From assembly GCA_963662175.1 (NCBI GenBank), contig OY759214.1, forward strand, positions 4,402,001-4,466,000: a DNA stretch of 64,000 nucleotides. The letters are read 5' to 3'. This DNA comes from Aradus depressus (taxonomy: Eukaryota > Arthropoda > Insecta > Hemiptera > Aradidae). A program made the position numbers and the translations under genes. This document shows positions 7,652 through 63,449 of this stretch, in pieces (positions within the stretch are counted from its first letter, which is position 1; each line of letters begins with the position of its first letter). The notes beneath the pieces were generated by a model, which saw only the letters and a list, made by a program, of their open reading frames with translations, made no database searches and had not been told where the DNA came from.

Positions 7652-7714
7652 GAGCCCCGAGCAAGTCAGCAGCAGGGGAAGGCTCAGGAGCCCCGAGCCA
7701 GTCAGCAGCTGAAG
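7652..7714 (+). CDS. Exon A1 of unidentified modular gene
   Basis: Acceptor TTTAAATTTCAG precedes 7652 and a GT donor follows 7714. The length of 63 nt keeps frame, and in phase 1 the exon is open. It encodes two near-identical 12-residue repeats of the form GAPS-K/Q-SAA, a Ser/Ala/Gly-rich linker. The homologous exon at 63381 has two candidate donors 12 nt apart. Here the outer one (after GGAG at 7726) is lost because LINE sequence starts at 7727, leaving only the inner GAAG|GTAGTT. The family is not recognised. That it is a real exon is inferred from splice signals, phase and the second copy. Confidence 0.6.
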
Positions 7715-7726
7715 GTAGTTCAGGAG

Positions 7727-8695
7727 ACCTAATAATAATATATATATATATGGTGGGCTGATGTTTTACACCTAGGGACCTAAGCACCAATGGTCTTATC
7801 CCTTCCCTGGATGCGCTGGGCTCCCATCTTACTTTGTTACCTGCTTATATATACTACCGAAACCAAGTCCTTCATGAAGGACCCAGTTTCCTTAACGAAT
7901 CTGAGAATGTTCTCGTGGTCCATTCTTCAAATTCCTCGATGATCTTTACCAAAAATGTCTGCATAGGGTTTCTCCTCTCTATGACTCATCCAAAAGGTCT
8001 CTAGTCCACTTTTTAATTCGGGTTCGGTATGCCTCCTGGGATATTCCTAATACCGGCTCTAACCCGATCAGGGGCTTACTTGAACCTTCCTTGGCTAGTC
8101 GGTCTGCCCCCTCGTTTCCCGGAATCCCTGAATGTCCGGGAACCCAGTAGAGTCCATCTTGTTTGTCGTTTCCTCTGGTGTTTAACTGATTCGTGCACTT
8201 ACTTACTAGCTCTGATATGATTCAGCGCTTGCAAGTGCTTGGAGTCCTGCTTGGCTATCGGAGAAGATTTTCATATCTTCCATTTCACTATTACCTCTCT
8301 TCTAGATGCGCTTTCCAGGGTCGCCATCACTTCCGCTTGAAACACAGTAGTGTGGCATCCAAGCTGTAACTTCCAACTCCAGGCTATGAATCCATATGCA
8401 ATCTCCTGTGAGTCCTGTGTCTTTCTGTCTAGAACCATCTGTGAAGTATCGTATATGTCTCCCAGTGACTGTTGTAGTTTCTTGCTGTATTCTGTCTCAC
8501 TACTCTTGATAGGGGCTGCGTATATCCTATTGAGGTTGGTGCGCTGCACCATCTTATCTTTTCTCCACCTAAATATTGCATATATTTCGCTTAGTACCTC
8601 CTTTTTCCCTTCTAAACGCCCTATTCCATTCTTCTTTAGCCTCGAGGTTGCAGCAGTATTCATTGTTAAATTCCATACACTTACATCCAGAGGCT
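7727..8695 (-). mobile_element. LINE 3' half: RNase H domain and tail
   Basis: On the minus strand the order is end of RT thumb, RNase H, tail. RNase H is recognised by the segment with VFQAEVMATL, the FSDSQAGLQAL block, and YWVPGHSGIPGNEGADRLAK, which holds the C-terminal His/Asp motif. The blocks are spread over different frames, so the copy is dead. The 3' end at 7727 has (TAA)n/(TA)n short repeats, as some LINEs do. The element continues at 9564-10600 beyond an inserted second LINE. It is a Jockey/R1-type element by domain order. Confidence 0.7.
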
Positions 8696-9563
8696 GTTGG
8701 ATAAAGGCTCATATAGGAATAAAATATAACGAAGTGGTTGATGGTTTTTCTAAACAAGCTTTATCAGAAGGGACCCCCTTACCAGTCCGGCTACCCAAAG
8801 AGGATCTTAGTGGACAACTTAAAAGGACCTGTCGGTCCATTTGGCAAGAGATGTATACCAGTAGTGACAAAGGAAGTTGGTATAAGAGGATGAACCCGAG
8901 AGTGGGCTCAGAACCCTAGTACAGAGAGGCCTGTCTCCCCAAGTCGGTATGTACTGTTATCAATAGGTTGAGGGTGAACAACGGGATCTGTGGAACGTAT
9001 CTCTTTAGAATAGGCAAGGCAGACAGCCCATTGTGTCGGGTGGAGGAGAACCTGGAGCACATTGTACTTACATGTACCAAATATCATACCCAGAGAGAAC
9101 TTATGTTCACTGTAACTGTATAAGCTAACCCAAGCCCCCTTTAACTATCCCCAGCTTTTAATAACCCGCAACATTTTTATTTACCAATCCATTTACAGAT
9201 TTATAATGCAAATTCAAAATCAGCCCCAGATTCCTTAGCTATAAATTGAACCAATGTAAGCTCTGGGCACTGGTCTATAGAACCAGGAGCTCCGAAGGTC
9301 CGGACGGCTGGCACTACATGCAGACCTTTCTTCAGGAGCCTCCACTCCAGTCACTGGTCTTGAATATTGTTTTGGGTGATGTGGTCCGGCGGTGCCTCCG
9401 GCTGTCCCCCGGCTTGGCTGGGGCCGCTTGCTTGGGCCCTCTGTCTGGCCTCCTGACTCCAGTATCCCGTCTTTGGCAGAAATATCTTTTATAGTGTAGT
9501 TTTAAGAATAGCAATGGCTAGTGTGTAGTGTCTGTGAAAAAGAAGAAGAAAAAAAAAAAAAAA
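8696..9563 (+). mobile_element. 5'-truncated LINE with poly(A), nested in another LINE
   Basis: The left edge enters at the end of RNase H (WIKAHIGIKYNEVVDGF, frame from 8698). After a stop it continues through a Cys/His segment (CRVEENLEHIVLTC) to about 9123, then a 3' untranslated region and an A-rich tail ending at 9563. TCCAGAGGCT occurs at 8686-8695 and again at 9564-9573, so the insertion is bracketed by a 10-11 bp target duplication. Joining across it restores continuity of the minus-strand LINE. The copy is 5'-truncated, as is usual for target-primed reverse transcription, and is not coding-competent. Confidence 0.8.
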
Positions 9564-10600
9564 TCCAGAGGCTCTGTTAATACTTTCATAGCAGCCGTAG
9601 GCGCTCTGGTTGCTGTAAGGCTTACTAGGCGTTCTATCTTTTTAAGTTTGTTGATCTGGTAGGTGTGACTTTAGCATTATATCTAGCGTTTCCTCATTGT
9701 TGAGGGTTCCTGTTCCGTCGTTTTTTTTTAGCGTCCGAAGCCTTGCTTCACCGCACTTACTCAACAGCCGTTAAGGCTGTTTGATAGGCTCTTATGACCC
9801 CTGAAAAGTCTTTTATCTTGTCTTCCACCACAATCATGCACTGCATCTTCGTGGGGCGATTCCACCAGCCGGCAGTAGCAACAAATACTCTTAGCCTCTC
9901 ACTCCATGTGTTGCACACGTGCAAGGTACACCCCGCTTTTGTGACTCCTCCACCTTGACCACACTGTGGCTTAGTCTTGTGAGTGTAAAAATCTCCTTGT
10001 TGTTGTCCTGCGGCTCAAGGTCCACAACGAAGAGCGGGAGGAAGACTTTGGTGTTTGGGTTCTTTACTCCACCGAGAAGCCAATCTCCTCCAGCAGCTCC
10101 TTGTTGGGAGACGTAGGTGTGGTCGGGTGGAGGTGCCTCAGAACCACTCTGTCTTAACTGGTTGCAGTGGTAACTAGCCACCCTGCTTAAGATGGTGAAT
10201 TATGCACCGGTAGGACTCCGGTGAGTCTACGTGCAGCTTTGTATGGCGGACACTGGTCTGGCATGTGAATTTATCAGGTTTTAATATGGAGCTTATTTTT
10301 CTGATAAATGACGAGATGGGGGGAGGTTTTCGGGTTGACGATGATTCCTCCTCTTGATCTACCGTCAGAGGAGCATAGTGATTGGAGGTTGAAATAGGTG
10401 GACGGGAACCCTCCTAGGATCCAGCCGCAGGTGCTTCATTGGCATTTTTCGCCTTCTTAGTGGCGGCAGACATGTGTCCACTGGAGCTCGGACGACCCCG
10501 CTTCTTTCTTCCTTACCCTTTCTCCCCATAATTAAGATTATTAAAGTAGTTAGCAACTTAAAAAAAAAAATAATAATAACAATAATAATAATAAAATAAA
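9564..10600 (-). pseudogene. LINE 5' part: Gag-like ORF1 and ORF2 pieces
   Basis: Read on the minus strand, 10181-9891 encodes a segment with PLFVVDLEPQDNNKEIF followed by VVKVEESQKRGVPCTC. This matches the region before the zinc knuckles of Jockey/R1-type LINE ORF1 (Gag). Further down comes GTGTLNNEETLDIML, typical of the ORF2 stretch between endonuclease and RT. Near 9650-9574 is KLKKIERLV followed by RAPTAAMKVL, typical of the RT thumb. Endonuclease and RT core are missing, so the copy was internally deleted. It continues into 8695-7727 beyond the nested LINE. Assignment is by motif recall. Confidence 0.6.
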
Positions 10601-11004
10601 TGTGAAGAAAAGGGGGGTCAGGGGTGGGACGTAAAGTTTTTTGGGGGTGAGGGGAAGGGGATGCGACACTTTACTAGGACCTTTAGCCACTCCTGGTGTA
10701 CAACTGGGAGTTGGCCAGGTCTGGGTTGTAAAAAGAATTAGCCCCAATCCTGAGACAGAGATAAGGACCGAGGGAACACTGAAGTCACCAAAAAAAAAAG
10801 GGAATCCTTACCACTGTTCTGGCTCAGTCCATGGTGAACCGTAGTGGTCCAAACTTTACATAAATTGTCCTGGTCGCTTATGGGCACTTCGAATAAAATT
10901 TCAGCAAAATCGCTTTATATTCACTCACAAAAAAGAGGTGGACAATGGGGATCCGACGTTAACACATCGGCTGTAATTTTACGAAGTGTGTCTTGATTTT
11001 GCAG

Positions 11005-11109
11005 AACAGAAGTCTGTGATAGAACTCCTTCGTGCAGCTCAAATGCGTTTGCTGTACGGCAAGCTCCCAACCAACACCCAGAGCGGACGACCCAGTAGTT
11101 CGTCAGGAG
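11005..11109 (+). CDS. Exon B1 of unidentified modular gene
   Basis: The exon follows GTGTGTCTTGATTTTGCAG and ends at TCAGGAG|GTATCT. It is 105 nt long, symmetric, phase 1-1 and open. The product begins with a short helical stretch (SVIELLRAAQMRLLYGKL) and ends in a Ser/Gly linker (SGRPSSSSG). Compared with exon B2 it lacks 27 nt in frame. It also carries only protein-changing differences in its first half, while its last 60 or so bases are identical to B2. Function is unknown. Whether B1 and B2 are used together or alternatively cannot be told from DNA. Confidence 0.7.
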
Positions 11110-11336
11110 GTATCTGATACTATCATTCTAGTTTAAGGAATAAGGCGGGAAAGCGCACTCAATCCTGCTCATAGCAGTGTGAAAACTAGTACCAGATTCA
11201 AGAGAGGCGGTTCAGGACGATGTAGCGCACCAGGTAACTTTGCTCCGGGTCTAAATAAGATCCAGGCAAGTGGCCTCCGCAGCCAAAAATCTATGGTGAT
11301 GGTCTCTTCTTCGTATATTCTGGTTTCGTGTATTCT

Positions 11337-11896
11337 GGCAAGGCAGACAGCCCATTGTGCCGGGTGTGTCGGGTGGAGGAGAACCTGGAGCATATTGTAC
11401 TTACATGTACCTAATATCATACCCAGAGAGAACTTATGTTCACTGTAACTGTATAAGCTAACCCAAGCCCCCTTTAACTATCCCCAGTTTTTAATAACCC
11501 GCAACATTTTTATTTACCAATCCATTTACAGATTTATAATGCAAATTCAAAATCAGCCCCAGATTCCTTAGCTATAAATTGAACCAATGTAAGCTCTGGG
11601 CACTGGTCTATAGAACCAGGAGCTCCGAAGGTCTGGACGGCTGGCACTACATGCAGACCTTTCTTCAGGAGCCTCCACTCCAGTCACTGGTCTTGAATAT
11701 TGTTTTGGGTGATGTGGTCCGGCGGTGCCTCCGGCTGTCCCCCGGCTTGGCTGGGGCCGCTTGCTTGGGCCCTCTGTCTGACCTCCTGACTCCAGTATCC
11801 CGTCTTTGGCAGAAATATCTTTTATAGTGTAGTTTTAAGAATAGCAATGGCTAGTGTGTAGTGTCTGTGAAAAAGAAGAAGAAAAAAAAAAAAAAA
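11337..11896 (+). mobile_element. LINE 3' end, duplicated copy
   Basis: Duplicate of the + strand LINE at 9013-9563. It holds the final Cys/His segment (with a 9-bp insertion that repeats CGGGTGTG-like sequence), the 3' untranslated region and the A-rich tail. The TCCAGAGGCT target-site copy follows at 11897. It is present because of the tandem duplication, not as an independent insertion. Confidence 0.85.
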
Positions 11897-12930
11897 TCCA
11901 GAGGCTCTGTTAATACTTTCATAGCAGCCGTAGGCGCTCTGGTTGCTGTAAGGCTTACTAGGCGTTCTATCTTTTTAAGTTTGTTGATCTGGTAGGTGTG
12001 ACTTTAGCATTATATCTAGCGTTTCCTCATTGTTGAGGGTTCCTGTTCCGTCGTTTTTTTTTAGCGTCCGAAGCCTTGCTTCACCGCACTTACTCAGCAG
12101 CCGTTAAGGCTGTTTGATAGGCCCTTATGACCCCTGAAAAGTCTTTTATCTTGTCTTCCACCACAATCATGCACTGCATCTTCGTGGGGCGATTCCACCA
12201 GCCGGCAGTAGCAACAAATACTCTTAGCCTCTCACTCCATGTGTTGCACACGTGCAAGGTACACCCCGCTTTTGTGACTCCTCCACCTTGACCACACTGT
12301 GGCTTAGTCTTGTGAGTGTAAAAATCTCCTTGTTGTTGTCCTGCGGCTCAAGGTCCACAACGAAGAGCGGGAGGAAGACTTTGGTGTTTGGGTTCTTTAC
12401 TCCACCGAGAAGCCAATCTCCTCCAGCAGCTCCTTGTTGGGAGACGTAGGTGTGGTCGGGTGGAGGTGCCTCAGAACCACTCTGTCTTAACTGGTTGCAG
12501 TGGTAACTAGCCACCCTGCTTAAGATGGTGAATTATGCACCGGTACGACTCCGGTGAGTCTACGTGCAGCTTTGTATAGCGGACACTGGTCTGGCATGTG
12601 AATTTATCAGGTTTTAATATGGAGCTTATTTTTCTGATAAATGACGAGATGGGGGGAGGTTTTCGGGTTGACGATGATTCCTCCTCTTGATCTACCGTCA
12701 GAGGAGCATAGTGATTGGAGGTTGAAATAGGTGGACGGGAACCCTCCTAGGATCCAGCCGCAGGTGCTTCATTGGCATTTTTCGCCTTCTTAGTGGCGGC
12801 AGACATGTGTCCACTGGAGCTCGGACGACCCCGCTTCTTTCTTCCTTACCCTTTCTCCCCATAATTAAGATTATTAAAGTAGTTAGCAACTTAAAAAAAA
12901 AAATAATAATAACAATAATAATAATAAAAT
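11897..12930 (-). pseudogene. LINE ORF1/ORF2 pieces, duplicated copy
   Basis: Duplicate of 9564-10600, with the same Gag-like 96-codon frame (12514-12224, minus) and the same fragments of the ORF2 linker and RT thumb. A handful of single-base differences separate the copies. Not functional. Confidence 0.6.
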
Positions 12931-13337
12931 AAATGTGAAGAAAAGGGGGGTCAGGGGTGGGACGTAAAGTTTTTTGGGGGTGAGGGGAAGGGGATGCGAC
13001 ACTTTACTAGGACCTTTAGCCACTCCTGGTGTACAACTGGGAGTTGGCCAGGTCTGGGTTGTAAAAAGAATTAGCCCCAATCCTGAGATAGAGATAAGGA
13101 CCGAGGGAACACTGAAGTCACCAAAAAAAAAAGGGAATCCTTACCACTGTTCTGGCTCAGTCCATGGTGAACCGTAGTGGTCCAAACTTTACATAAATTG
13201 TCCTGGTCGCTTATGGGCACTTCGAATAAAATTTCAGCAAAATCGCTTTATATTCACTCACAAAAAAGAGGTGGACAATGGGGATCCGACGTTAACACAT
13301 CGGCTGTAATTTTACACAGTGTGTCTTGATTTTGCAG

Positions 13338-13469
13338 AAGTGAACTCTGGGACAGAACTCCTTCACAAAAGAGTAAAACTGCTCCAGGAGGATGTAGCTC
13401 AAATGCGTTTGCTGTTCGGCAAGCTCCCAACCAACACCCAGAGCGGACGACCCAGTAGTTCGTCAGGAG
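13338..13469 (+). CDS. Exon B2 of unidentified modular gene
   Basis: The exon follows TCTTGATTTTGCAG and ends TCAGGAG|GTATCT. It is 132 nt, symmetric, phase 1-1 and fully open. It encodes an amphipathic, coiled-coil-like helix (ELLHKRVKLLQEDVAQMRLL) followed by a Thr/Ser/Gly linker ending SSSSG. It is 9 codons longer than B1. The helix is the only part that differs between the copies, and the linker is identical. It is the duplicated partner in the 2.3-kb tandem duplication. Family not recognised. Confidence 0.75.
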
Positions 13470-13688
13470 GTATCTGATACTATCATTCTAGTTTAAGGAA
13501 TAAGGCGGGAAAGCGCACTCAATCCTGCTCATAGCAGTGTGAAAACTAGTACCAGATTCAAGAGAGGCGGTTCAGGACGATGTAGCGCACCAGGTAACTT
13601 TGCTCCGGGTCTAAATAAGATCCAGGCAAGTGGCCTCCGCAGCCCAAAATCTATGGTGATGGTCTCTTCTTCGTATATTCTGGTTTCG

Positions 13689-14589: not shown

Positions 14590-14697
14590 GAAAAACGAGC
14601 CGCCCGGACGGAGTGCAGGACATTGATTCTGCACAGGAAACAATACTCAGGCAGACCCTATCTGACCTCGACACACTATTCAGCGAGATCATTCAGG
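14590..14697 (+). CDS. Exon C1 of unidentified modular gene
   Basis: The acceptor CTTTTTTTTTCTAG precedes it, and ATTCAGG|GTATTT is the donor. It is 108 nt, symmetric, phase 1-1 and open. The product starts with a charged linker (GKTSRPDG) followed by an acidic helical segment (TILRQTLSDLDTLFSEIIQ). The 5' end and preceding intron resemble those of exon C2 at 58663, so the two are duplicates now separated by the 44-kb satellite and retroelement block. The role is unknown. Splicing across such an intron is inferred. Confidence 0.7.
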
Positions 14698-14849: not shown

Positions 14850-16011
14850 AAGTATACAGGAAGTAATGTTATTGCTGTGAATGTGCATCTATGAAAACTT
14901 TCATGTATGATCTGGCCCAGTACTCTGTGATCATTTTACTTCCCCAGCTACACAAAGTATACAGGAAGTAATGTTATTGCTGTGAATGTGCATCTATGAA
15001 ACCTTTCATGTATGATCTGGCCCAGTACTCTGTGCTCATTTTATTTCCCCAGCTACACAAAGCATACAGGAAGTAATGTTATTGCTGTGAATGTGCATCT
15101 TTGTAACCTTTCATGTATGATCTGTCCACAGTACTCTGTGATCATTTTACTTCCCCAGCTACACAAAACATACAGGAAGTAATGTTATTGCTGTGAATGT
15201 GCATCATTGTAACCTTTCATGTGTGATCTGTCCACAGTACTCTGTGATCATTTTACTTCCCCAGCTACACAAAGTATACAGGAAGTAATGTTATTGCTGT
15301 GAATGTGCATCTATGAAACCTTTCATGTATGATCTGGCCCAGTACTCTGTGCTCATTTTATTTCCCCAGCTACACAAAGCATACAGGAAGTAATGTTATT
15401 GCTGTGAATGTGCATCTATGAAACCTTTCACGTGTGATCTGTCCACAGTACTCTGTGATCATTTTACTTCCCCAGCTAAACAAAGCATACAGGAAGTAAT
15501 GTTATTGCTGTGAATGTGCATCTATGAAACCTTTCATGTATGATCTGGCCCAGTACTCTGTGCTCATTTTATTTCCCCAGCTACACAAAGCATACAGGAA
15601 GTAATGTTATTGCTGTGAATGTGCATCTTTGTAACCTTTCATGTATGATCTGGCCCAGTACTCTGTGATCATTTTACTTCCCCAGCTACACAAAGTACAC
15701 AGGAAGTAATGTTATTATTGTGAATGTGCATCTATGAAACCTTTCATGTATGATCTGGCCCAGTACTCTGTGATCATTTTACTACCCAGCTACACGAAGT
15801 ATACAGAAAGTTATGTTATTGCTGTGAATGTGCATCTTTGTAACCTTTCATGTGTGATCTGTCCACAGTACTCTGTGCTCATTTTATTTCCCCAGCTACA
15901 CAAAGCATACAGGAAGTAATGTTATTGCTGTGAATGTGCATCTATGAAACCTTTCACGTGTGATCTGTCCACAGTACTCTGTGATCATTTTACTTCCCCA
16001 GCTAAACAAAG
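14850..16011 (+). repeat. 105-106 bp satellite array, left segment (~11 monomers)
   Basis: The monomer runs GTATACAGGAAGTAATG, TTATTGCTGTGAATGTGCAT, CTATGAAACC or CTTTGTAACC, TTTCATGTGTGATCTG, then TCCACAG or GCCCAG, TACTCTGTG and CATTTTACTTCCCCAGC. The first unit enters at about 14850 without a transition. The segment ends at the CAAAG target site where the outer LTR element inserted. It continues at 28481. Confidence 0.95.
16007..16011. repeat. Target-site duplication CAAAG (left)
   Basis: CAAAG sits directly before the outer LTR element and again directly after it (28476-28480). Removing the element and one copy restores an ordinary satellite monomer (AAACAAAGCATACAGG), a form found intact near 15478. 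Confidence 0.9.
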
Positions 16012-16834
16012 TGCTAGATTATTTTATGCTTGATGTTTTGTTGTGACTATAGTTATATTAAATTGAATAAAAAAAAATTATATATTGATTTGGAGTGAGG
16101 CTCCTAAGGAAAAAACTATGTCATAAATAACTCTTTTCATTCTTGGAATTTACGTTACCGGTACCAATAAAAAAAAAAAAAAATTATTTCCCGGTATGAT
16201 TCTAAATAGATTATTAATTATAACTATTGTATCCTGAATAATTGGTACTTACCTCCAAAGGTATTATTGGGGTTCGCAAGGCCTATGGGTTTTGAAATTT
16301 GAATTTCATTGAGAGAGATTTTGGGGAAATTAAAAGAAATTAAAACATGGTTATAAATAAATTGGCTTTACTAAAATAAATTTTATGACTTTGAAAAATT
16401 GAAGTGGCCATATTGAAAAATGTATATACAAAAATGGATACTACCTTGTGACGTCACACTTGAAACATATATACAATAAATTTTACTTTTTAACATAAAA
16501 ATTGGAGTCCACACTCTCTCCACATCCCTTCAATCTTTTACCAGTCACTTTTACTCACTTTCAATTGTTTACTCACTACTTTTCACACATTTCAACAAAA
16601 AAACAGAGACCAGTCTCTCACCGGTTTCACCTCTACCAGAATCCAGCATAGACTGACTAAACTGCCTCCGCACGGAATTATGGGTAGCAAATTCGAGTTT
16701 CTTTTTTCTGTTGTCTCTTGTTTTACTTAGGTTTCTTTCTTCTTTATTTTCTGTTTCTTTTTTTCAAATGGATTCCAAAAAAATAACGTCGCTTCGACAT
16801 CGGTTGTCTTGGCAACGGGTTTGTTTACATTACA
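16012..16834 (-). repeat. Outer element 3' LTR
   Basis: This LTR matches 27654-28475 over its full length. I see two substitutions and one A-run length difference. The edges are TGCTAGATT and TTACATTACA on the + strand. It contains a palindromic TGACGTCA at 16449-16456. Near identity means a young insertion. Confidence 0.92.
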
Positions 16835-18255: not shown

Positions 18256-18709
18256 TGTTTGGGTCAGGGTCGGACACTTAACGTTGTGAGCAAAGGCCCG
18301 ATAACCATGAAGAACCCAGAATGATAGGGGAGTAAAATATGTGAGGAATAAATGCGGAAATAGTGAAAATAAGAATTCTATTTGGAACACAATAAGTAAA
18401 TTGAAATGAATGTTACTTGATCACTGTAAACAGAATGTTCTGGTCGATTCGGCTGTGTCGCTCCTTGGTGGTCCGTGATGATAGACGAGATCGGAGGGGG
18501 TCCTCACGGGGAAGTCTTCATATGTAAGATGTATCCAGGCCAGACTGCGTTGGACGAGACGCTGACTGGGGTAGTAAGATGCTTCCCGGTCAGGCTGTGG
18601 TGAACGACTGGTCGCTGGACCGGGAGTAGTGGGGATAGCGAGCGAGCTAGCCGTGGCGTAGGGACCATAGTGGGGGGCGCTGGCTAAGCTCAATAGTCGT
18701 CATTGAACA
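18256..18709 (-). repeat. BEL 3' LTR
   Basis: 454 bp, + strand edges TGTTTGGGTCAGGGTC and CATTGAACA. It is identical to 24836-25289 except for CATATGTAAG versus CATATGTGAG and CGTC versus CGTA near the end. Confidence 0.95.
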
Positions 18710-18725
18710 TACCGCCCACCTAAAT
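18710..18725 (-). other. BEL polypurine tract
   Basis: On the minus strand AGGTGGGCGGTA abuts the LTR start TGTTCAAT. A GGTGGGCGG-type tract at this position is familiar from insect BEL/Pao elements and would prime plus-strand synthesis. Confidence 0.7.
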
Positions 18726-18977
18726 TTGGCTACGCTGAATTTACAGTACCCAAAAAAAGGGCAGGGGTGAGTCGACCGATGGCAGCCGAGAGGGGAGAAC
18801 AGCACTATGTACCTTCATAGTGATAAGGAAACATATCTTAAAAATAATTAGAATTATAAGTGATAAAAGGAACGCAACATGAACTTACAAAGATTAAAGA
18901 AAAAAATAGCCTAAAATAATTAGAATTATAAACTATATACAAACTATATGAATCTCGGCAATGTCCAGGGATCCCCG

Positions 18978-21900
18978 TCACTTAGGGGAAACTCGGGTCG
19001 CATCTGATGAGAGTAGAGGTGCGAGAGAGGCGACTGAACGCTTGAAAATTCTTCCATTTAGTGTGCGAACGGTAACCACTCTCACGACGCCGTCGTCTCC
19101 GGGGAAAACGTCGCAGATACGCCCGGTCGGCCAAGTACCTGCAGGTGTGCGACTCTCGATCATCAGAACGAGATCGCCGATGCTGAGATTAGGATGGTTT
19201 CGGGTCCATCTGACACGCTGCTGTAGGAGATGCAAATAGTCCTTGTTCCATCGGGACCACACATAAGATATTTGCCGTTGTACTAAGTGCCAACGATCGA
19301 GGTGACTGGTGCATTCATCTGAAGATGGAACAGATGGGATAGAAGTCAGTGGTGCACCGATCAGAAAGTGGCCAGGTGTCAGTGTGTCGAAACTCTCCGG
19401 ATCTTCTCTGAGAGGGCATAAGGGTCTCGAGTTGAGCAGCCCTTCAATGCGTACCAAGATGGTATTCAATTCTTCAAAGGTAAGGGGGTACTTACCGACA
19501 GAAGTCACCAAAAGATTTTTGATGGACTTAACGCCGGCCTCCCACAAACCGCCGAAGTGTGGAGAGCGAGGTGGTATGAATTTCCAAACAACACTCTTGG
19601 AGGAGAGGTGATCAGTCCATAAATCAGTGTGACGGCTCAAAAACGCGTAGAGATCCTTGAGATATCTAGATGCGCCGACAAAGTTGGTGGCATTGTCCGA
19701 ATGAATGCACTGCGGGAGTCCGCGTCGAGCGACAAAGCGGTCTAGGGTGGCCAAGAACGCATCTGTCCCTAGCGAGGAAACTAGCTCCAAATGGATAGCC
19801 TTCGTGGCGAAGCAAACGAAAATGCAGAGATATGCCTTGCCTATCGGTGCCTTGCGTCTTGGAGATTCTCGGAGGGCAAATGGTCCGGCATAATCGACTC
19901 CAACCTGTGAAAATGCGCGAAACTGATGGAAACGTTCAACTGGAAGATCACCCATTAGGGGGATAGACGGCCTGACACGGAGACGTCTGCAATGGGTGCA
20001 GAGATATATCCGGCTCTTAATCACCTTAAGTGCGCTGGGAACCCAAAATTTCTGGCGCAAAAGAGACAGCATTAGAGTTGGGCCAGCATGAAAGTGCTTC
20101 TTGTGCAGGTCGTCTATGATGAGACGAGTGAGATGGTGATCTCGAGGTAGAAGCATAGGGTGCTTATGGTCATAGGTGAGCGAGGAGTGTCGCAGCCTGC
20201 CGCCCACCCTAATTAACCCATGCGCATCCAAAAAGGGATGGAGTTGCTGGTAGGCCTTAGGGGTTTCATCACCATAGAGCGCTGGAGGCAAAGCACAGTG
20301 TTGAGCGATTTGTACGCATGCGGAGAGTGCCTTAGAGAATTCATCGCTAGTGATGGGTCCTTGGGTGGCTTCCTGTAGGTGTTGCGCGCGATGAGCGAGC
20401 CGCAATATCCGAGCGATTGTTCTGATCAATCGTGGTAGGGAGGAAAAACGACTCATCCAAGAGTCATCATGAATATGGTGAACTTTCTTGGACGTTGGGA
20501 TGGCAGTAGCCAGCAAGGCTTGATCTGGTGACGGCGAGAGGAGTCCAGAATAGCCTTCGCCAAATGGTTCCGGGTTGTCCATGAGCCAGAGGGGTCCACG
20601 CCACCAGAGGTTGTGATCCTTGAGTTCGGATGGAAGGCATCCACGGGATGCTATGTCGGAGGGATTATCCTCCGAGCGAACAAACTTCCACTGCCTGACA
20701 TCGGAAGCCCTTAGAATAGCAGAGACTCTGTTCGCCTCAAACACCTTGAGTTGATGAATAGGTTGGCGCAACCATGCAAGCACCACCGAAGAGTCTGTGA
20801 AGTATAGAGCTTCATGATGCGTCTCTATTGTGATAGATGACATGACTCTCGCAAGCAAGAGCGCTCCGCAGAGTTCCAATTGGGGTATCGTTAGAAACTT
20901 GGTGGGGGCGACCTTTGTCTTCGCTTTGAGCAGATTGACGTGCACTCCGCCACTAGGTGACTGAGTGCGTGCGTAAACAGCAGCAGCGTATCCATGGGAG
21001 GAAGCATCGCTAAAATCTATCAGCTGGATAGTTGCTTGATGGACCTGTATATAGCGGGGAATGGTAATCATCTTAAGAGTAGGCCACTCGTTGGTAAGTT
21101 GATACCATTTTTCGCGAAGAGGTGAAGGCAAGGGATCGTCCCAAGAGATTTCGTGGCGCCAAGCTTCTTGTAGCAAGGTTTTGGCGCTAAATATTACGGG
21201 AGCTAAAAATCCGAGTGGGTCGAAAATTCGTGCAACGGTTGAGAGAACGACCCGCTTGGTTGCATGAGAGATAGGTTCTTGGACTGTGAAAGAGAAAACA
21301 TCTCGTTGGGGGTACCACATGAGACCAAGAATCTTGATGATGGAATTGCTTTCCTGAGGCAAGGCTTGAGCTTCAATAGGATCCTGAGAAGGAGGTAGCA
21401 ATTCGGGGGCATTAGATGCCCATTTGCTTAGTTGAAACCCGCCTAGATTAAATAGGCCAATGAGCTGTTCCTTAAGAGCATGGGCCTCTTCGAGCGTATT
21501 TGCTCCTGAAGCAAAATCGTCGACGTACATGGCCTTCGGAATCCGCTCTGCAGCTAGGGGAAAGGCGTAGCCTTCATCACTAACAAGCTGGGCAACAGTC
21601 TTGATCGCTTGATAACCGCTAGACGTGATGCCATAAGTGACGGTGCGCAGTTCATGCTCAACTACAGGCTTGGAAGGATCGTTACGCCAGAAAATATGCT
21701 GTAGGTGACGGTCTTCGGGATGTACCAAGATCTGGCGGTACATCTTCACTAGATCCGTCGTGAAGGCTATGACGAAGAGACGAAAGTGGATGAGTATGTC
21801 GCACAAGTCCGTCTGCAGTTTAGGCCCAGTGATAAGAACATCGTTCAAGCTGGGGCCGCCAGCCGAGCAAGATGCGTCAAACACAACACGAAGCTTAGTT

Positions 21901-24395
21901 TCGTGCGGCTTGACTTGCCATACCCCGTGATGAGGGATCACGTAGGGTGCAACAATGGTCGTGGGAGCCATGTGGCCTAGACGTACATAGTCTTCCATAA
22001 AGGCTAAGTACTTCTCCTTGAGGATGGGGTCACGAGTGAATTTCCGCTCCAAGGCGAAGAATCTCCGGAGAGCTATGTCTCGGTTTTCGTCAGGGAGCAC
22101 GCCAGTAGGTTTCAGGGGCAACCTCACTACATATCTACCCTCCGGAGTGCGCGAATGAGTTTTCGCAAACGACTCTTCACACAAGACGTCTGCGGGTCGT
22201 GGTTCCTCAATTTCCCAGAAGACCTTCAACTGGCTTAAGATAGCAGTTTCATCCAGGGCCAAAAGGGAGATGCTGCGCGACTGATTGATAAAAGAAGTGG
22301 TTCCCATGACCACATTACCAAAAACAGTGGGCATGAGATAAAGCTCGTCAACCTCCGACTTGACGGGAGCTCCTATGATGAGTCGTGGATATAAGTCAAG
22401 TCCAACCAAAACATCGACGAGGCCAGGATCGGCGAATGAGGGGTCAGCTAAGCCGTAACGCGATAGCTGAACAGCGACGGTCGGTGAAACCTTTCGCTTC
22501 GGAGTGTCGGATGTAATCTCATCGACTACAAGAGCGCGCACCTTGAAGCACGCATCAGTAATAGTAGAGTGCATGCGGCACGTTAACCAACCTTTGACAT
22601 TGGGCACTAAGTTGCCACCAAGACCCGCTATACGGCCGTCAAAGGGTTTTAAACTACCGCCAATTTTACTGGCGAGGTCGGTAGTTATAAATGTATACTG
22701 GCTCCCTGAGTCCAATAACACACGAGCGGGGACGGAGGTGTGAAGTCCGTCGAATAGGGCCTGAGCGGTGCCCATAATGACATGCGATTCGGGTTGATGT
22801 CGCTTGTCGGTAGGCGCCGGGATGGTATCTTCCCGAACATGGCCTACGAATGATGAATGGGGTTCACCATTGTTATCGTTGGAGCGGGCTTCATCAGTCT
22901 TCTTCCCTGTATGAAGTAAGCTGTGATGCCTTGAATTGCAGTACTTACAATTCCATTTTGACGGGCAGTTCGCGGCCCGGTGCCCTCTTCCCAGGCAGTT
23001 AAGGCATCCAGTCCATGCCTTGGCGAAGTCGAAACGAGTCTGGGCCGGCAGCTCACTGAAGGTGAAACATTTCACTAGTGAATGGCTGCCTTTGCAGTAG
23101 GGGCATGGAGTGAAACTCGGATTTGGGCTGTTATTCGTAGCCGAGGGAGAGGTGCGTCCAAATCTGTTTGACCTAGGTGAGCCACGGCGGCGAGCCGGGC
23201 TCCTCCTCGGACTGGCGGTTGGGGAACTACTGTGACGTGTAGGGCTCTTCCTTGACCAGTATTGAGATGAATCTCCAGATTGGGCGAGCATAGATACGCC
23301 AGTAGAGTACTTAGGCGAACTCTTATTGGGAGGTTTGAGTCGCGGATCCATTGCTCGATCGGGGGTACCGGAGCGTTCATCGAGAAGTTCCAGGGATAGC
23401 TTACAAGCCATCATGCGTTGCCTCACAAAGTTGATTATTTCGTCGGCAGATGGGAACTCTGTCCCTTTATGGGCAAGCTCAAACTGCTTGCGGGTGGCCG
23501 GATCGAGTGCTCGCAATGCCAGGATAGACAGTAAGGCGTCACCTGGGTTTTGGAGCCTTAGAGCGCGAAATGATTCGACGCTCTCGCCGACCTGAGAGAG
23601 ATATGCGTTCAGCTTGGCGTACTCAGAGTTGGATGAGCGATTACGGAAATTTAGGACCGTCTGAATTTGTCGAGAGGCCAATACTCGGGGGTTGTCATAA
23701 ACCTTCATTAATGACTCCCAAGCCAGGGCATATGAAGAACCGTCGAAGGACAGACCAGACAGGAGCGATGCGGGTTCTCCTACCAGAGCGTCTTTAAGAT
23801 AATGCATCTTGTCGACTGGAGGGATGCATGGACTGTTTCCTACTAATGAGAGAAACTTGTCCCGAAATTCTACCCATTTGAATAAGTCCCCGTTCCATTT
23901 AGGCACCGCTATGCGTGGTAACCCACATCCCTGATAGTCGTTGGATGCTGACAATAGGGTGGGAACGGCAGCCGAAGAGGCTGAAGTGACGGATGCGGCT
24001 TCGCGTTTCAGTCTAAGCTTCCGAAGAGAGGTATCAGCCGCAAGGATCTCATCCCTCACAGTATCGTGGATAGTCAGCCATTTTTCATCTGGAAACGAAG
24101 TTTTCGGATCGAGATTGAAATGCGCACTATCGAGCTCCTTCCAGGTTGCCTGAAATTCGTGCCAATACTCACAAGCGCTGTGTATGCGTGCCTCCAGATC
24201 GGCATAAGAGTCGTCGTCAGGGGTGGCTGCCTTAGCCACAACCATGATGCCGGCAATGTTGCGCTTAATGCTGCGGAGCTGGCGCTCTAGTGATGAAATC
24301 TGATGGGAAGATTCCGCCATCATGTGACTATCAATCTGGTGGGTAAACAATAGAAAATATAATTTGGAAAATAATGATCCGTTCAGGACACACAA
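18978..24395 (-). CDS. BEL/Pao Gag-Pol polyprotein, intact
   Basis: A single 1805-residue frame with BEL/Pao domain order. Gag-like DUF1759 region at about 160-335 (WNGDLFKWVEFRDKF). CCHC/Cys-His knuckles at about 431-495 (CLNCLGRGHRAANC). Aspartic protease at about 555-670 with the active-site triad DSG at 562-564. RT at about 780-1000 with first Asp in TTDLVKMYRQI (881) and YVDD at 957-960. Pao peptidase A17/RNase H region at about 1040-1250 (LIDFSDAS, PQLELCGA, FTDSS). H2C2 zinc region at 1431-1469. Integrase DDE at D1501, D1567 and E1619. DUF5641 at about 1700-1795. The true start may be the Met pair at residues 25-26 (24323), since the first 24 residues look unlike Gag. No frameshift or stop is seen. 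It makes virus-like particles and copies the element in the cytoplasm by family analogy. Confidence 0.95.
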   Translation of the reverse strand: MCVLNGSLFSKLYFLLFTHQIDSHMMAESSHQISSLERQLRSIKRNIAGIMVVAKAATPDDDSYADLEARIHSACEYWHEFQATWKELDSAHFNLDPKTSFPDEKWLTIHDTVRDEILAADTSLRKLRLKREAASVTSASSAAVPTLLSASNDYQGCGLPRIAVPKWNGDLFKWVEFRDKFLSLVGNSPCIPPVDKMHYLKDALVGEPASLLSGLSFDGSSYALAWESLMKVYDNPRVLASRQIQTVLNFRNRSSNSEYAKLNAYLSQVGESVESFRALRLQNPGDALLSILALRALDPATRKQFELAHKGTEFPSADEIINFVRQRMMACKLSLELLDERSGTPDRAMDPRLKPPNKSSPKYSTGVSMLAQSGDSSQYWSRKSPTRHSSSPTASPRRSPARRRGSPRSNRFGRTSPSATNNSPNPSFTPCPYCKGSHSLVKCFTFSELPAQTRFDFAKAWTGCLNCLGRGHRAANCPSKWNCKYCNSRHHSLLHTGKKTDEARSNDNNGEPHSSFVGHVREDTIPAPTDKRHQPESHVIMGTAQALFDGLHTSVPARVLLDSGSQYTFITTDLASKIGGSLKPFDGRIAGLGGNLVPNVKGWLTCRMHSTITDACFKVRALVVDEITSDTPKRKVSPTVAVQLSRYGLADPSFADPGLVDVLVGLDLYPRLIIGAPVKSEVDELYLMPTVFGNVVMGTTSFINQSRSISLLALDETAILSQLKVFWEIEEPRPADVLCEESFAKTHSRTPEGRYVVRLPLKPTGVLPDENRDIALRRFFALERKFTRDPILKEKYLAFMEDYVRLGHMAPTTIVAPYVIPHHGVWQVKPHETKLRVVFDASCSAGGPSLNDVLITGPKLQTDLCDILIHFRLFVIAFTTDLVKMYRQILVHPEDRHLQHIFWRNDPSKPVVEHELRTVTYGITSSGYQAIKTVAQLVSDEGYAFPLAAERIPKAMYVDDFASGANTLEEAHALKEQLIGLFNLGGFQLSKWASNAPELLPPSQDPIEAQALPQESNSIIKILGLMWYPQRDVFSFTVQEPISHATKRVVLSTVARIFDPLGFLAPVIFSAKTLLQEAWRHEISWDDPLPSPLREKWYQLTNEWPTLKMITIPRYIQVHQATIQLIDFSDASSHGYAAAVYARTQSPSGGVHVNLLKAKTKVAPTKFLTIPQLELCGALLLARVMSSITIETHHEALYFTDSSVVLAWLRQPIHQLKVFEANRVSAILRASDVRQWKFVRSEDNPSDIASRGCLPSELKDHNLWWRGPLWLMDNPEPFGEGYSGLLSPSPDQALLATAIPTSKKVHHIHDDSWMSRFSSLPRLIRTIARILRLAHRAQHLQEATQGPITSDEFSKALSACVQIAQHCALPPALYGDETPKAYQQLHPFLDAHGLIRVGGRLRHSSLTYDHKHPMLLPRDHHLTRLIIDDLHKKHFHAGPTLMLSLLRQKFWVPSALKVIKSRIYLCTHCRRLRVRPSIPLMGDLPVERFHQFRAFSQVGVDYAGPFALRESPRRKAPIGKAYLCIFVCFATKAIHLELVSSLGTDAFLATLDRFVARRGLPQCIHSDNATNFVGASRYLKDLYAFLSRHTDLWTDHLSSKSVVWKFIPPRSPHFGGLWEAGVKSIKNLLVTSVGKYPLTFEELNTILVRIEGLLNSRPLCPLREDPESFDTLTPGHFLIGAPLTSIPSVPSSDECTSHLDRWHLVQRQISYVWSRWNKDYLHLLQQRVRWTRNHPNLSIGDLVLMIESRTPAGTWPTGRICDVFPGDDGVVRVVTVRTLNGRIFKRSVASLAPLLSSDATRVSPK

Positions 24396-24835
24396 TCAAG
24401 GAAATATCAATGGTTATGCATATGTATATAATATATAATATGTTAATATGATTATGCATATGTTATAATATGTTAATATGATTATGCATATGTTATAACA
24501 TGTTTATAAAATATGTATGTATATAATATAAATGTGTACATAAGTTAAGAGCATAAGTGATTAGAAACTAGGAGACCTAATCCTTATAGAGGATTACTGT
24601 GGTCGGACAAGTGTTTGTAATATACTTGCACTTATTATTACAAAGTATGTTGTCTAACGTAGGATTAAAGCGAGGGATTATTTGGCTGCCATAGGTCGAG
24701 CTCCTATGAAATACAACATTGACTGAAATATTATATAAAAATTCATAATGAATGAATAAATGAAAAAAGATGAGACACTGAATAAAAGTGATGAAGAGAG
24801 ATTTCCACAATATTCCTCACCCGGGGCACCATAAA
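24396..24835 (-). other. BEL untranslated leader with AT-rich repeats
   Basis: The leader lies between the 5' LTR and the polyprotein. It contains a TATA-rich stretch (24410-24530) with ATTATGCATATGTTATAA repeated. No separate gene is present. Confidence 0.6.
24814..24831 (-). other. BEL primer-binding site candidate
   Basis: On the minus strand, four bases (TTTA) after the LTR comes TGGTGCCCCGGGTGAGG, starting with the TGG that pairs with the CCA tail of a tRNA. I cannot assign the tRNA with confidence. Confidence 0.6.
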
Positions 24836-25289
24836 TGTTTGGGTCAGGGTCGGACACTTAACGTTGTGAGCAAAGGCCCGATAACCATGAAGAACCCAGA
24901 ATGATAGGGGAGTAAAATATGTGAGGAATAAATGCGGAAATAGTGAAAATAAGAATTCTATTTGGAACACAATAAGTAAATTGAAATGAATGTTACTTGA
25001 TCACTGTAAACAGAATGTTCTGGTCGATTCGGCTGTGTCGCTCCTTGGTGGTCCGTGATGATAGACGAGATCGGAGGGGGTCCTCACGGGGAAGTCTTCA
25101 TATGTGAGATGTATCCAGGCCAGACTGCGTTGGACGAGACGCTGACTGGGGTAGTAAGATGCTTCCCGGTCAGGCTGTGGTGAACGACTGGTCGCTGGAC
25201 CGGGAGTAGTGGGGATAGCGAGCGAGCTAGCCGTGGCGTAGGGACCATAGTGGGGGGCGCTGGCTAAGCTCAATAGTCGTAATTGAACA
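24836..25289 (-). repeat. BEL 5' LTR
   Basis: 454 bp, the promoter-side LTR for the minus-strand element. See the matching LTR at 18256-18709. It is followed by AATGG, the second target-site copy. Confidence 0.95.
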
Positions 25290-27348: not shown

Positions 27349-27653
27349 CTTAAATAATAACTTTAATATCTCGAATTCAAAAAAAAATTATCAATATGAA
27401 TGTAAAAATATTTTGGTTCAATATTTTTATATGTATATAAACAAAAATTCATGTAGTATATTCCCCTCTCTCTCAACGAAACTCATATCTCCCCATGGCC
27501 TTATTCTTCCTGATTTTAAATAAATGCATCTTTTAGGCATATTTACTCTATATTAAAAAAAATGTTTCGGTGATTCTATGCGAGTTATTTATTGGTCAAA
27601 GAATGCAAAAATAAAAAAAAACAAGAAATTACCCTCACAAGGAGATGCCATAA
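27349..27653 (-). other. Outer element leader with primer-site candidate
   Basis: Sequence between the 5' LTR and the Gag-like frame. On the minus strand, three bases (TTA) after the LTR comes TGGCATCTCCTTGTGAGG (27650-27633), a TGG-starting primer-binding site candidate. The tRNA is not identified. Confidence 0.5.
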
Positions 27654-58662: not shown

Positions 58663-58764
58663 GAGAGATGAGCCCAGCCAAACAGAACGGGATCTCCAAC
58701 CAGGGAGGTCTGAACGGGATGATCGACAAGATCGAAATAATGAACAGCAAGATTGACACACTTA
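58663..58764 (+). CDS. Exon C2 of unidentified modular gene
   Basis: Acceptor CTTTTTTTTTAG, donor CTTA|GTATGT. It is 102 nt, symmetric, phase 1-1 and open. The product is GEMSPAKQNG followed by a Met/Ile/Asp-rich helical segment (MIDKIEIMNSKIDTL). Its start and the preceding intron match exon C1 at 14590, and its following intron matches that of exon D (GTATGTTA.GTTTA, TTTCTTCGTTTAC). C1, C2 and D thus look like products of exon-plus-intron duplication. Family not recognised. Confidence 0.7.
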
Positions 58765-59950: not shown

Positions 59951-60242
59951 TATTTCTGAGAGATAGCTTTAGTTAGGTTTATGAGCGAGGGAGTGTCAGC
60001 GCTGGCTGGCTTCTCCCATCAAGTGACGTTGTTAGTTTTTCTTTTTGTCCACATATTTGCTTGTTATGTATATATTGTATATAGATTGCAAATAAAAAAA
60101 AAAAAGTTTATGAGCAATGAAAATAAAGGTGTGATTAAGTTTTGATTTTGGGATATGAACGATGAGAGAACGTTACTGATAACGGGTATAGAATGTGGCT
60201 CGGTCTTTGATTGTGCTGGATCAACCCTGGGCTGCTACATTC
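59951..60242. other. Intron segment with A-rich stretch
   Basis: Non-coding sequence with AAATAAAAAAAAAAAAG near 60091, possibly the tail of an unidentified retroposed fragment. Nothing else is recognised. Confidence 0.4.
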
Positions 60243-61075
60243 GCATCCTTATCGGGGAAGGTGGTGGTAAGAGGTGACTTGTGCATCTGACGGGGGTGGT
60301 GTGGTGCAAATGGAGCAATGCGGCAAGGTGGCTGGCCGGGCAGCCTCACGAGGACCACCCACAGGCCCACTGGGGCCGCACGCCGAGTGCCAGGGTTATC
60401 GGGGAAGGTGGTGGTGAAGAGGTGACTTGTGCATCTTACAGGGGTGGTGTGGTGCAAGTGGAGCAATGCGGCAAGGTGGCTGGCCGGGCAGCCTCACGAG
60501 GACCACCCACAGGCCCACTGGGGCCGCACGCCGAGTGCCAGGGTTATCGGAGAAGGTGGTGGTGAAGAGGTGACTTGTGCATCTTACAGGGGTGGTGTGG
60601 TGCAAGTGGAGCAATGCGGCAAGGTGGCTGGCCGGGCAGCCTCACGAGGACCACCCACAGGCCCACTGGGGCCGCACGCCGAGTGCCAGGGTTATCGGAG
60701 AAGGTGGTGGTGAAGAGGTGACTTGTGCATCTTACAGGGGTGGTGTGGTGCAAGTGGAGCAATGCGGCAAGGTGGCTGGCCGGGCAGCCTCACGAGGACC
60801 ACCCACAGGCCCACTGGGGCCGCACGCCGAGTGCCAGGGTTATCGGAGAAGGTGGTGGTGAAGAGGTGACTTGTGCATCTTACAGGGGTGGTGTGGTGCA
60901 AGTGGAGCAATGCGGCAAGGTGGCTGGCCGGGCAGCCTCACGAGGACCACCCACAGGCCCACTGGGGCCGCTCGCCGAGTGCCAGGGTTATCGGGGAAGG
61001 TGGTGGTGAAAAGGTGACTTGTGCATCTTACAGGGGTGGTGTGGTTCAAGTGGAGCAATGCGGCAAGGTGGCTGG
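60243..61075 (+). repeat. GC-rich 148-bp minisatellite, ~5.6 copies
   Basis: Nearly identical units start at about 60281, 60429, 60577, 60725 and 60873 when scored by the same phrase. It is GC-rich in an AT-rich neighbourhood. Each unit contains GTGCATCTTACAGGGGTGG, which resembles a splice acceptor, and GTGCCAGGGTTATCG. Since 148 is not a multiple of three, open frames of 72-94 codons pass through different frames on both strands and are probably not translated. Confidence 0.92.
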
Positions 61076-61449
61076 ACTCTGAGGTCCCTGTAGACTGTTA
61101 AATTCTAAACTACTTTGGCATTATACATAATATAATATAGATATTTACATGGTTATGAGAAGGCAGGCAAAAAGATAGAACTTAAAGTCTTACTTGTCAA
61201 GGCGGAGGAGCGGCATGGTAGGGCATCTTGAGGTTCAGGACTGAGAATGGTGCCAGTGTCATAACATCTTTTAAAGGCCTCCAATTTTCTTCCCTTCTGC
61301 AAAATCTGCTCTTGTGCCTTTCTATTTTTTCTGACATTTCTATTGCCTCTGAGTTGTGACCTACTCCACTTTGTGTAAACAAAGTGAACCCGTTTCGTAA
61401 TAGAGCACAACTCTTTGTTCACCCTAAAAATTCTCTCCTAATTTCACAG
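61076..61449. other. Intron before exon D
   Basis: Contains a minus-strand open frame of 89 codons (61422-61153) without a recognised domain. The last 60 bases include TTCTCTCCTAATTTCACAG, the acceptor of exon D. Confidence 0.45.
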
Positions 61450-61578
61450 TATCACAGATGGAAGGGAAGATGACTCCAAGCGGGCCGACAACAGCCGCCG
61501 TCTCGGACGGGAGTCAGCGCCTGAATTTTAAGTCCCTAATCAATCCTCAGGACGATGAAACACAAGCCAAGATAATTG
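61450..61578 (+). CDS. Exon D of unidentified modular gene
   Basis: Acceptor CCTAATTTCACAG, donor AATTG|GTATGT. It is 129 nt, symmetric, phase 1-1 and open. Joined to C2 it completes an Ile codon. It encodes ISQMEGKMTPSGP, then a Thr/Ala/Ser linker and a polar segment (LNFKSLINPQDDETQAK). The donor and early intron resemble those of C2. Family not recognised. Confidence 0.72.
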
Positions 61579-61726
61579 GTATGTTATGTTTATGTATCTG
61601 AGAAACAGCCAATAAGTCAACGGAAGAACAATAGACTTTCTTCGTTTACCTATGAAACCCTAAAAAATCATTAATGTAGTCCGAATAGAACCTGTCAGTA
61701 TTTTTATTTCATTTAGGCCTCCTAAC

Positions 61727-62762
61727 TAGGAGGAATTGTGCCCAGTCGCTGATCAGGGCGGCTGAGTCAAAGTTCCTTCTGAATCTGATAGCGGAGGCAC
61801 CTAACGCCAAGTCAAGATGGGCAGCTCTTCGGAAGCTCTCGTTAGGTTCCAACAAAAACCCTCCTTCTCCTTCAATCTTCTCTCCCGACACACTTAATTC
61901 CTTTTTTCTCTCCCGTCCTAATCTTCCTCTAGCGTCTCCAGCTGAGATTACATCTCCCCAGCCCTTCGATTCAATTAATTTTTTCTTTTCATATATTTAC
62001 CCTGACACCCTCCTAAAGATCATCCTTAATAGTAGCTCTAATTCCCTTGGCCCTGACGACATCCCGCTCCTCTTCCTTAAAACTTGCTTACCAGTCATAC
62101 TCCCAGTCCTCTTACATATCTATAATTTCTCCCTTAAAAACTCCGTCTTTCCTTCCGCCTGGAAAGAAGCATTTGTACTCCCTCTCAACAAAGTCCCTAA
62201 TCCTGAAGCTCCTAAAGACTTTCGCCCTATCTCCCTTCTGTGTTCCACATCCAAACCTTTAGAGCGTATAGTTCATTCCCAAATCTCAGATTTCCTTCTT
62301 ACCAACAAACTCCTCGACCCTTTCCAATCTGGTTTCCGACCCGGTTATGGGACTCAATCTGCCTTACTGAAACTAACAGAAGACTTCCGACAGGCCATTG
62401 ACGCTAGACAACTTACTCTGCTAGTACTGTTCGACTTTTCCAAAGCCTTTGACTCCGTGGACCACTCCATTCTCCTCATCCTCGCTCCCTCTCCACTCAG
62501 GAGTTCCCCAAGGATCCTCTCTTTCCCCGCTCCTATTCTCCCTTTTCCTCTTGGATCTTCCTCCACACATCGAATTTTGTAAATACCACCTCTACGAGGA
62601 TGATCTGCGGATTTATTTATCCTTTCACCCCTCCAGTTTCCCTACCGCATACTCGCAAATATCTGATATCAATTCCATATCCCCCTGGGCCAAACAGAAC
62701 AAACTCCTCCTTAATCCTCACAAGACCCAAGCGATTATATTAGGCATATTTAGTCTGTTTTA
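61727..62762 (+). pseudogene. LINE reverse-transcriptase fragment
   Basis: Read on + from about 61727: a linker region, then RT blocks NSLGPDDIPLLFLK, WKEAFVLPLNKVPNP, DFRPISLLCSTSK, GFRPGYGTQSALL and LFDFSKAFDSVDHSILL. Then about 45-50 residues are missing and the frame changes. A second frame (from about 62480) continues HSGVPQGSSLSPLLFSLFLLDL and then YEDD where Y-x-DD is expected. It ends at 62762. It is non-LTR (CR1/Jockey-like), non-functional because of the deletion, and lies in the intron after exon D. Confidence 0.8.
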
Positions 62763-63380
62763 GACAGGGAAAGCCAAGGAATTTCAACCATTGACGTTTG
62801 TAGGCCCTCTGAAGATCACAAAATCTGAATGAGAGTTGGAAGTAACTTAAGTTACTCACCAACACGAAGTAACTAACCGAACAACACTGGGAGAACCTTC
62901 GTTTTTTTTTTTTTTTTTTTTTTTCAGAAATATTATTGAGACTTCATCTGCGAATGTAACCTACATAGGTTTTAGACGAATATGACCTACATACAGGTCT
63001 AATAATTTTATCTTTCTAGATTAAACGGTAGAAAAGTTACTAAGGTGTGTCACGACGGACAGCTTCAGAATTCAGGTGCTCCTTTTTTTCCCCCACTTTA
63101 TTCAATACTTATTTAATCTTCGTAGACGTTTCGGGCTGCAAGCCCAACCAACCTCAGTATCTACGAAATTTAAAACAACATTGCTATAATAATTACTTTG
63201 ATGCAATTACGGTCTTAAATCTCAATGATAATTTATTACTTTTACCTTTCCAATAACATATTACAGAGGGTGAGGTCTGCTACAGACTGCTGTCACTATT
63301 AGCAAGTATGCTACCTCATGTATCCCTAATATATACATTTATCTGCTTATCCGTTCTATTCTATTTTTTCTACTCCTCAG
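62763..63380. other. Intron before exon A2
   Basis: Contains a T23 run (62902-62924) followed by CAG, which mimics an acceptor but leads into early stops. It also contains a hairpin element (63119-63167) and the acceptor tract TTTTTTCTACTCCTCAG at the end. Confidence 0.5.
63119..63167 (-). other. Nested hairpin, weakly hammerhead-like
   Basis: The outer stem TTCGTAGA/TCTACGAA (63119-63126, 63160-63167) encloses an inner stem GGGCT/AGCCC. On the minus strand CTGAGG precedes and GAAAC follows the inner stem, as in hammerhead ribozymes of Penelope-like elements. The core CTGANGA is not matched, so it would be at best a degenerate relic. Confidence 0.3.
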
Positions 63381-63449
63381 GAGCCCCTCAGCCTAACAGG
63401 AGGATCTTTAGAGCCTCGAGCCAGCCAGCAGCCGGGGGTGACTCTGGAG
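63381..63449 (+). CDS. Exon A2 of unidentified modular gene
   Basis: Acceptor CTACTCCTCAG, donor TCTGGAG|GTACCG. It is 69 nt, symmetric, phase 1-1 and open. A second donor 12 nt earlier (CGGGG|GTGACT, exon end 63437) would also keep frame, removing four residues. It encodes GAPQPNRRIF and a linker RASSQPAAGGDSG. The 5' end and the AGCCAGTCAGCAGC-like half are homologous to exon A1 at 7652. Its presence at the far end of the window suggests the gene continues. Confidence 0.7.

Follow-up and report, generated by a model that had tools for sequence, protein, structure and literature searches.

A predicted fast-changing gene with duplicable symmetric exons in Aradus depressus

Bicycle genes, which are described from aphids, phylloxerans, and scale insects, have many short internal exons, nearly all of which start at codon position 2 (PMC9168663). 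The genes are under rapid positive selection, few of their relatives are found by sequence search, motif units multiply within the proteins, and some homologs have no clear CYC motif; the same study reports none in three outgroups, and its searches included Psylloidea, Aleyrodoidea, and Fulgoroidea. In the Hessian fly, copies of the SSSGP genes lie in one chromosome region, with conserved non-coding and hypervariable coding parts; the roughly 950 coding nucleotides (nt) of SSSGP-2 are split by 35 introns, and an intron and a conserved signal peptide are reported for SSSGP-1 (PMC2955719). The exons of schistosome micro-exon genes (MEGs) measure 3–81 bp, most of them 15 bp (PMC10526429). Here we describe a predicted gene on the plus strand of a 64,000-nt stretch of Aradus depressus DNA (C1:4402001-4466000, contig OY759214.1; hereafter the window), part of a genome of 698 Mb in 74 contigs. 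Its closest analogs are the bicycle genes, in exon phase and exon number, and the SSSGP genes, in conserved introns and variable coding parts. Coordinates without a contig name follow the window numbering.

The gene is very probably real. We consider it moderately probable that it is one spliced gene with an expandable block of cassette exons, fast coding change, and a putative secreted role in an arms race.

Change in duplicated exons and in their introns

An earlier note, made from the sequence of the window, had proposed seven short exons (e1 to e7, Table 1). Their positions, lengths, AG and GT borders, divisibility by three, and open reading in phase 1-1 were all reproduced, and in four of the seven (e2, e3, e5, and e6) no frame other than phase 1 is open. 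The note also argued that seven such lengths would all be divisible by three about once in 2187 by chance. The divisibility stood, but with exons chosen by eye the figure cannot serve as a fair test. Candidate exons were therefore counted on both strands of the window after the masking of four repeat stretches, all under the same fixed splice score, which was built on frequencies from general knowledge. Phase 1-1 accounted for 12 of the 33 high-scoring open candidates on the plus strand (binomial P = 1.3e-4 at 1/9, although candidates with a common splice site are not independent) and for 2 of 21 on the minus strand; at a lower cut-off, the counts were 15 of 65 and 3 of 42, and phase 1-1 candidates averaged 4.15 in 20 first-order Markov sequences of the same size, with at most 13 in any one of them. 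By themselves, the phase statistics are a moderate signal, and the decisive evidence is comparative.

The exons e2 and e3 lie in tandem copies of about 2.3 kb (9013-11328 and 11337-13688, respectively). Apart from the in-frame indel, the exons differ at 8 of 105 sites, as against 15 of 2194 outside them, two of these at the edge (Fisher P = 4e-6). The best in-frame codon alignment shows nine differences, all nine non-synonymous and none synonymous (78.8 versus 26.2 sites). This is the pattern that would be expected of a translated exon with such a frame and roughly such borders that is selected for change. Comparison of the two copies establishes the duplication of the exon and supports its predicted borders and frame. 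The young duplication allows exon change to be measured directly against the exon's own intron and is in this respect a clean natural case.

Two further exons of the window, the micro-exon em1 and e0, lie beyond the seven of the note. A genome search with e0 gave four copies, all on the plus strand of C1, at 4.41 (the window), 4.67 (copy P, C1:4663501-4686300), 5.04 (G3), and 5.75 Mb (G4, C1:5739001-5752000; weak E-value of 0.085). Between G4 and G3, the bases just upstream of e0 are alike at 69 of 78 positions and the exon at 75 of 139. Read from a TATAG or TACAG acceptor, each of the four copies of e0 is open in frame 0 and in no other; a phase 1-1 reading (135 nt from 6796) was rejected, as G3 has no such acceptor. 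Four copies of em1 were also found on C1 (window, P, G3, and G4), each of 36 nt with a GT donor. Frame 0 is the sole frame that all four have open, the phase 1-1 reading being ruled out by a stop in that frame in G4.

Copy P matches the window and the sequence beyond it in colinear blocks. Between the window and P, e0 has 42 differences in 144 bases, as against 40 in 709 for the intron after it. The change at non-synonymous sites of e0 (35.8 of 112.7) exceeds the intron rate (P = 4e-14). Between the window and G3, 90 of the 145 exon bases are identical, compared with 94 of the next 100 intron bases. These comparisons support the borders and frame predicted for e0, demonstrate related exons at several places on C1, and, together with e2/e3, reveal an excess of amino-acid change; they bear out the suggestion of rapid change in the earlier note, as in both cases exon change exceeds intron change and is largely amino-acid-altering. 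In B72, an exon beyond the window, the window gene and P differ at 38 of 105 non-synonymous sites, compared with 30 of 178 flanking bases (P = 3e-4), and at 3 of 21 synonymous sites, so that the contrast between exon and intron is weaker than in e2/e3 and e0. Lengths differ among the copies solely in multiples of three (e1, 63 and 135 nt; e0, 145, 145, 148, and 142 nt; A66, 77 and 95 nt).

It is very improbable that the exons are chance splice-like open stretches or decayed pseudo-exons. Short open stretches between AG and GT are frequent, as the Markov sequences illustrate; however, in-frame indels and the excess of amino-acid change fall inside the predicted borders, and one frame is open in all four copies of em1 and of e0.

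Gene model and kinship among the cassettes

Three more exons were found past the window edge (e8, A66, and B72). Among the five additions to the original seven, e8 alone is in phase 1-1; the description of the gene as made of symmetric phase 1-1 cassettes is thus accurate for its middle but not for the flanking 5' and 3' exons, which have other phases. The 12 exons join in a single open frame of 392 amino acids, with the phases 0-0, 0-1, eight times 1-1, 1-0, and 0-1. The gene would extend at least from position 5612 to about 8 kb beyond the window end, and a recurring 5' part (36-nt 0-0 and 145-nt 0-1 exons) and 3' part (77-nt 1-0 and 127-nt 0-1 exons) would enclose eight cassettes, all presumably joined in one transcript. 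Around A66, the interval of about 66390-66805 is almost identical between the window gene and P, the neighboring colinear blocks being 76 to 97% identical, and resembles a gene-conversion patch.

Table 1. Exons of the predicted gene and the long intron between e4 and e5 (window numbering; positions above 64000 lie beyond the window).
Feature	Position	Strand	Length and phase	Remarks
Micro-exon em1	5612-5647	+	36 nt, phase 0-0	KVFGCIVFTSGL
Exon e0	6786-6930	+	145 nt, phase 0-1	LLSEEEINW...CFAHPDLVPTIT
Cassette exon e1	7652-7714	+	63 nt, phase 1-1	Ser/Gly/Ala/Pro repeat
Cassette exon e2	11005-11109	+	105 nt, phase 1-1	First copy of tandem duplication
Cassette exon e3	13338-13469	+	132 nt, phase 1-1	Second tandem copy, with in-frame 27-nt indel relative to e2
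Cassette exon e4	14590-14697	+	108 nt, phase 1-1	Acceptor flank aligning with e5/e8
Presumed intron e4-e5	14698-58662	+	44 kb	Mostly 106-bp satellite, with BEL/Pao retrotransposon
Cassette exon e5	58663-58764	+	102 nt, phase 1-1	Acceptor flank as e4/e8; donor score 2.8
Cassette exon e6	61450-61578	+	129 nt, phase 1-1	Open in phase 1 only
Cassette exon e7	63381-63449	+	69 nt, phase 1-1	Last 39 nt align with e1; donor score 3.6
Cassette exon e8	64265-64348	+	84 nt, phase 1-1	Acceptor flank as e4/e5
Exon A66	66582-66658	+	77 nt, phase 1-0	Also present in P and G3; 77 or 95 nt
Exon B72	71889-72015	+	127 nt, phase 0-1	Present in window gene and P

Kinship among the cassettes was assessed in 81 comparisons of exons and 60-base flanks, with 300 shuffles each, and six fell below P = 0.01. 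They comprise the acceptor flanks of e4/e5, e4/e8, and e5/e8, the donor flanks of e5/e6 (14 nt), and the exons e1/e7 and e5/e7 (the latter at 0.003). T runs at acceptors raise the flank scores, and a pattern search of the genome weighs more: the acceptor pattern of e4, e5, and e8 had three matches in 698 Mb, all at these exons, and its reversed control had none. The pattern was built from these exons, and its informative part is the absence of any fourth match. The coding parts of e4, e5, and e8 showed no significant mutual alignment in the shuffle test. In e1 and e7, 39 coding bases align, of which 31 are identical. The claim of a multi-exon gene with symmetric, duplicable cassettes is thus supported by duplication for e2/e3, e4/e5/e8, and e1/e7.

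Between e0 and A66 of copy P, e1 was the only cassette detected at the thresholds used; it measures 135 nt there (63 nt plus two 36-nt units). Even at low thresholds, no other convincing cassette was found in P or G3. The number of cassettes therefore appears to differ among the gene copies. Bases 7474-7572 of G4 form a possible extra 99-nt phase 1-1 cassette with a weak donor. A transposon origin of the exons was disfavored: e0 had four matches with E ≤ 10 in the genome, and the joined e1 to e8 matched only their own eight places, in a search that omitted the known e1 copy in P and so misses some.

The cassettes would have originated by duplication of an exon together with its intron flanks. 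New cassettes would keep the frame and, because they are symmetric, could be added without breaking it. After duplication, the coding part would change quickly, mainly at amino-acid-changing sites, while the adjoining intron would often stay alike. As a tentative extension, the cassettes may have been copied with their splice flanks and the coding part rewritten until only the intron flank shows kinship (e4, e5, and e8), with cassette number and content varying between gene copies; the gene would then be a modular generator of effectors or antigens, possibly with splice isoforms.

Another reading accepts the exons but assigns them to two or more neighboring genes, with the satellite separating e0 to e4 from e5 to B72. 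It would spare the gene a 44-kb intron between e4 and e5 with 30 kb of satellite. However, the phase is kept at every join, the acceptor flank shared by e4, e5, and e8 is unmatched elsewhere in the genome (although duplication could cross gene borders), and in P the 5' pair (em1 and e0) and the 3' pair (A66 and B72) lie within about 10.6 kb. We regard a division into several genes as unlikely.

A number of observations weigh against a single gene with selected coding change. The first and last exons were not found in the search for the gene, and the donors of e5 and e7 are weak (Table 1). Exons e2 to e6 and e8 were found neither in P nor elsewhere in the genome, so that they are placed in the transcript by phase and by the flanks they share. 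In e0, synonymous change between the window and P (6.2 of 31.3 sites) is also above the intron rate (P = 0.009), and part of the contrast between exon and intron may come from introns homogenized by conversion rather than from selection; such homogenization has been proposed for the Hessian fly genes (PMC2955719). The conservation of introns is local: upstream of e0, the window and P are identical at 56 of 91 bases, and past the first 100 bases of the following intron, identity between the window and G3 drops to 70 of 136. In addition, A66 is nearly identical between the window gene and P in both exon and intron, so not every exon is accelerated.

Product, possible role, and comparison with described families

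A protein that is long, flexible, and modular would result. The combined share of Ser, Gly, Pro, Thr, Asn, and Gln is 0.29 to 0.57 in each cassette, and a simple moment calculation without a control indicated a short amphipathic stretch in several of them. Exons e1 to e8 encode no cysteine, and the cysteines of the 392-amino-acid model (positions 5, 49, 342, and 386) are far apart. No first exon carrying a signal peptide was established; em1 is hydrophobic. A signal-peptide-like stretch, MMAVFVIIFLTITKCK, at 5545-5592 has a good phase-0 donor and is a possible alternative first exon joining e0. The MMAVFVIIFLTITKCK candidate is not conserved in G3 and would leave a 19-nt intron before em1.

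The statement of the earlier note that the family is not recognised agreed with every library searched (proteins, Pfam, NCBIfam, and PDB). The joined exon peptides had no homolog at E ≤ 10 among the approximately 8000 candidates, within a length range, that shared most words with them out of 5.77 billion proteins. The 12-exon protein had no Pfam match above the cut-off (best E of 0.077), no NCBIfam match, and no PDB match. No published description of the gene family was found in literature covered mainly as titles and abstract openings, which makes this a weak statement. Genes of this kind can escape annotation and homology search through their short exons and rapid sequence change; here, the kinship of the exons could be read from the introns instead.

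Exons that change faster than the surrounding introns and multiply by duplication form a pattern often seen in arms-race proteins. Our best guess, which we hold with a little less than even confidence and by analogy, is that the protein is secreted and has a salivary or venom-like role, as an effector or as another arms-race protein whose diversity would be selected. Fast amino-acid change and repeat expansion are usual in reproductive, immune, silk, and cuticle-surface proteins. The gene may thus be real and fast-evolving but encode no feeding effector, its low-complexity linkers and helices belonging to a reproductive, immune, silk, or cuticle-surface protein; we consider this possible, though with limited confidence. 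Both features fit all such classes, no signal peptide was established, and the domain and structure searches gave no match that would point to one of them. Nevertheless, the exon phase, conserved introns, and variable coding parts that recall bicycle and SSSGP genes lean toward an effector. If it is an effector, the gene would join these two families as a case of modular exons and rapid selection driving diversity.

Bicycle genes are marked by enrichment in salivary gland mRNA. The resemblance to them lies in short, numerous exons, 9 of 12 of which start at codon position 2 (all eight cassettes and A66), and in rapid change. A divergent homolog of that family could therefore be considered, and the retrotransposon in the e4-e5 intron agrees with this: among the 120 matches listed, out of 3618 that passed the cut-off, 37 name an organism, of which 21 are hemipteran, two of them from an aphid. 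However, em1, e0, and B72 start in phase 0, and the cassettes average 99 nt and are without cysteine. The published gene-structure classifier (pass above 0.72; PMC9168663), applied with its published coefficients and with assumed end exons, failed with logits of about -30 for the 12-exon model, -22 for copy P, and -13 for the cassettes alone, that is, a probability of at most 3e-6. Together with the outgroup result cited above, this makes homology with bicycle genes decidedly unlikely.

As in the SSSGP genes, introns are more conserved than coding parts between the copies of e2/e3 and of e0. The locus differs in its expandable block of symmetric exons, in its patchy conservation, in that no signal peptide was established, and in spacing, as the other copies are 0.26 to 1.3 Mb away from that in the window. 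With MEGs, it shares short exons mostly divisible by three (9 of 12 here), long introns, and difficulty of annotation (PMC10526429); unlike in MEGs, only 4 of the 12 exons are 81 nt or shorter (36, 63, 69, and 77 nt), and no sequence relation was found.

Repeats in and around the e4-e5 interval

The 106-bp satellite forms about 285 copies at 28472-58558 (30 kb) and a smaller upstream array of about 11 copies at 14850-16011. Direct repeats at 16007-16359 and 27649-28000, 97–99% identical and about 11.6 kb apart, bound a segment that holds the retrotransposon and sits between the two satellite arrays. The BEL/Pao retrotransposon (18256-25135, minus strand) has one long open frame, and a 98% identical stretch occurs at C1:4663501-4668849. 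A fully identical copy of the 300 bases at 18256 lies at 24836, which suggests that the insertion is young. Among the matches listed, the best named one by E-value is from a pseudoscorpion, and other named matches come from a lacewing, a beetle, a moth, a spider, and a damselfly.

All five scored ribosomal RNA matches in the genome lay on the chromosome-sized contig C2, and no symbiont ribosomal RNA was seen. An 18S ribosomal RNA was located at C2:60423498. Between e5 and e6, a 148-bp tandem repeat with 98% matches occupies 60249-61075, and open frames run across its units. A reverse transcriptase fragment (Pfam RVT_1) lies between e6 and e7, at 61689-62582.

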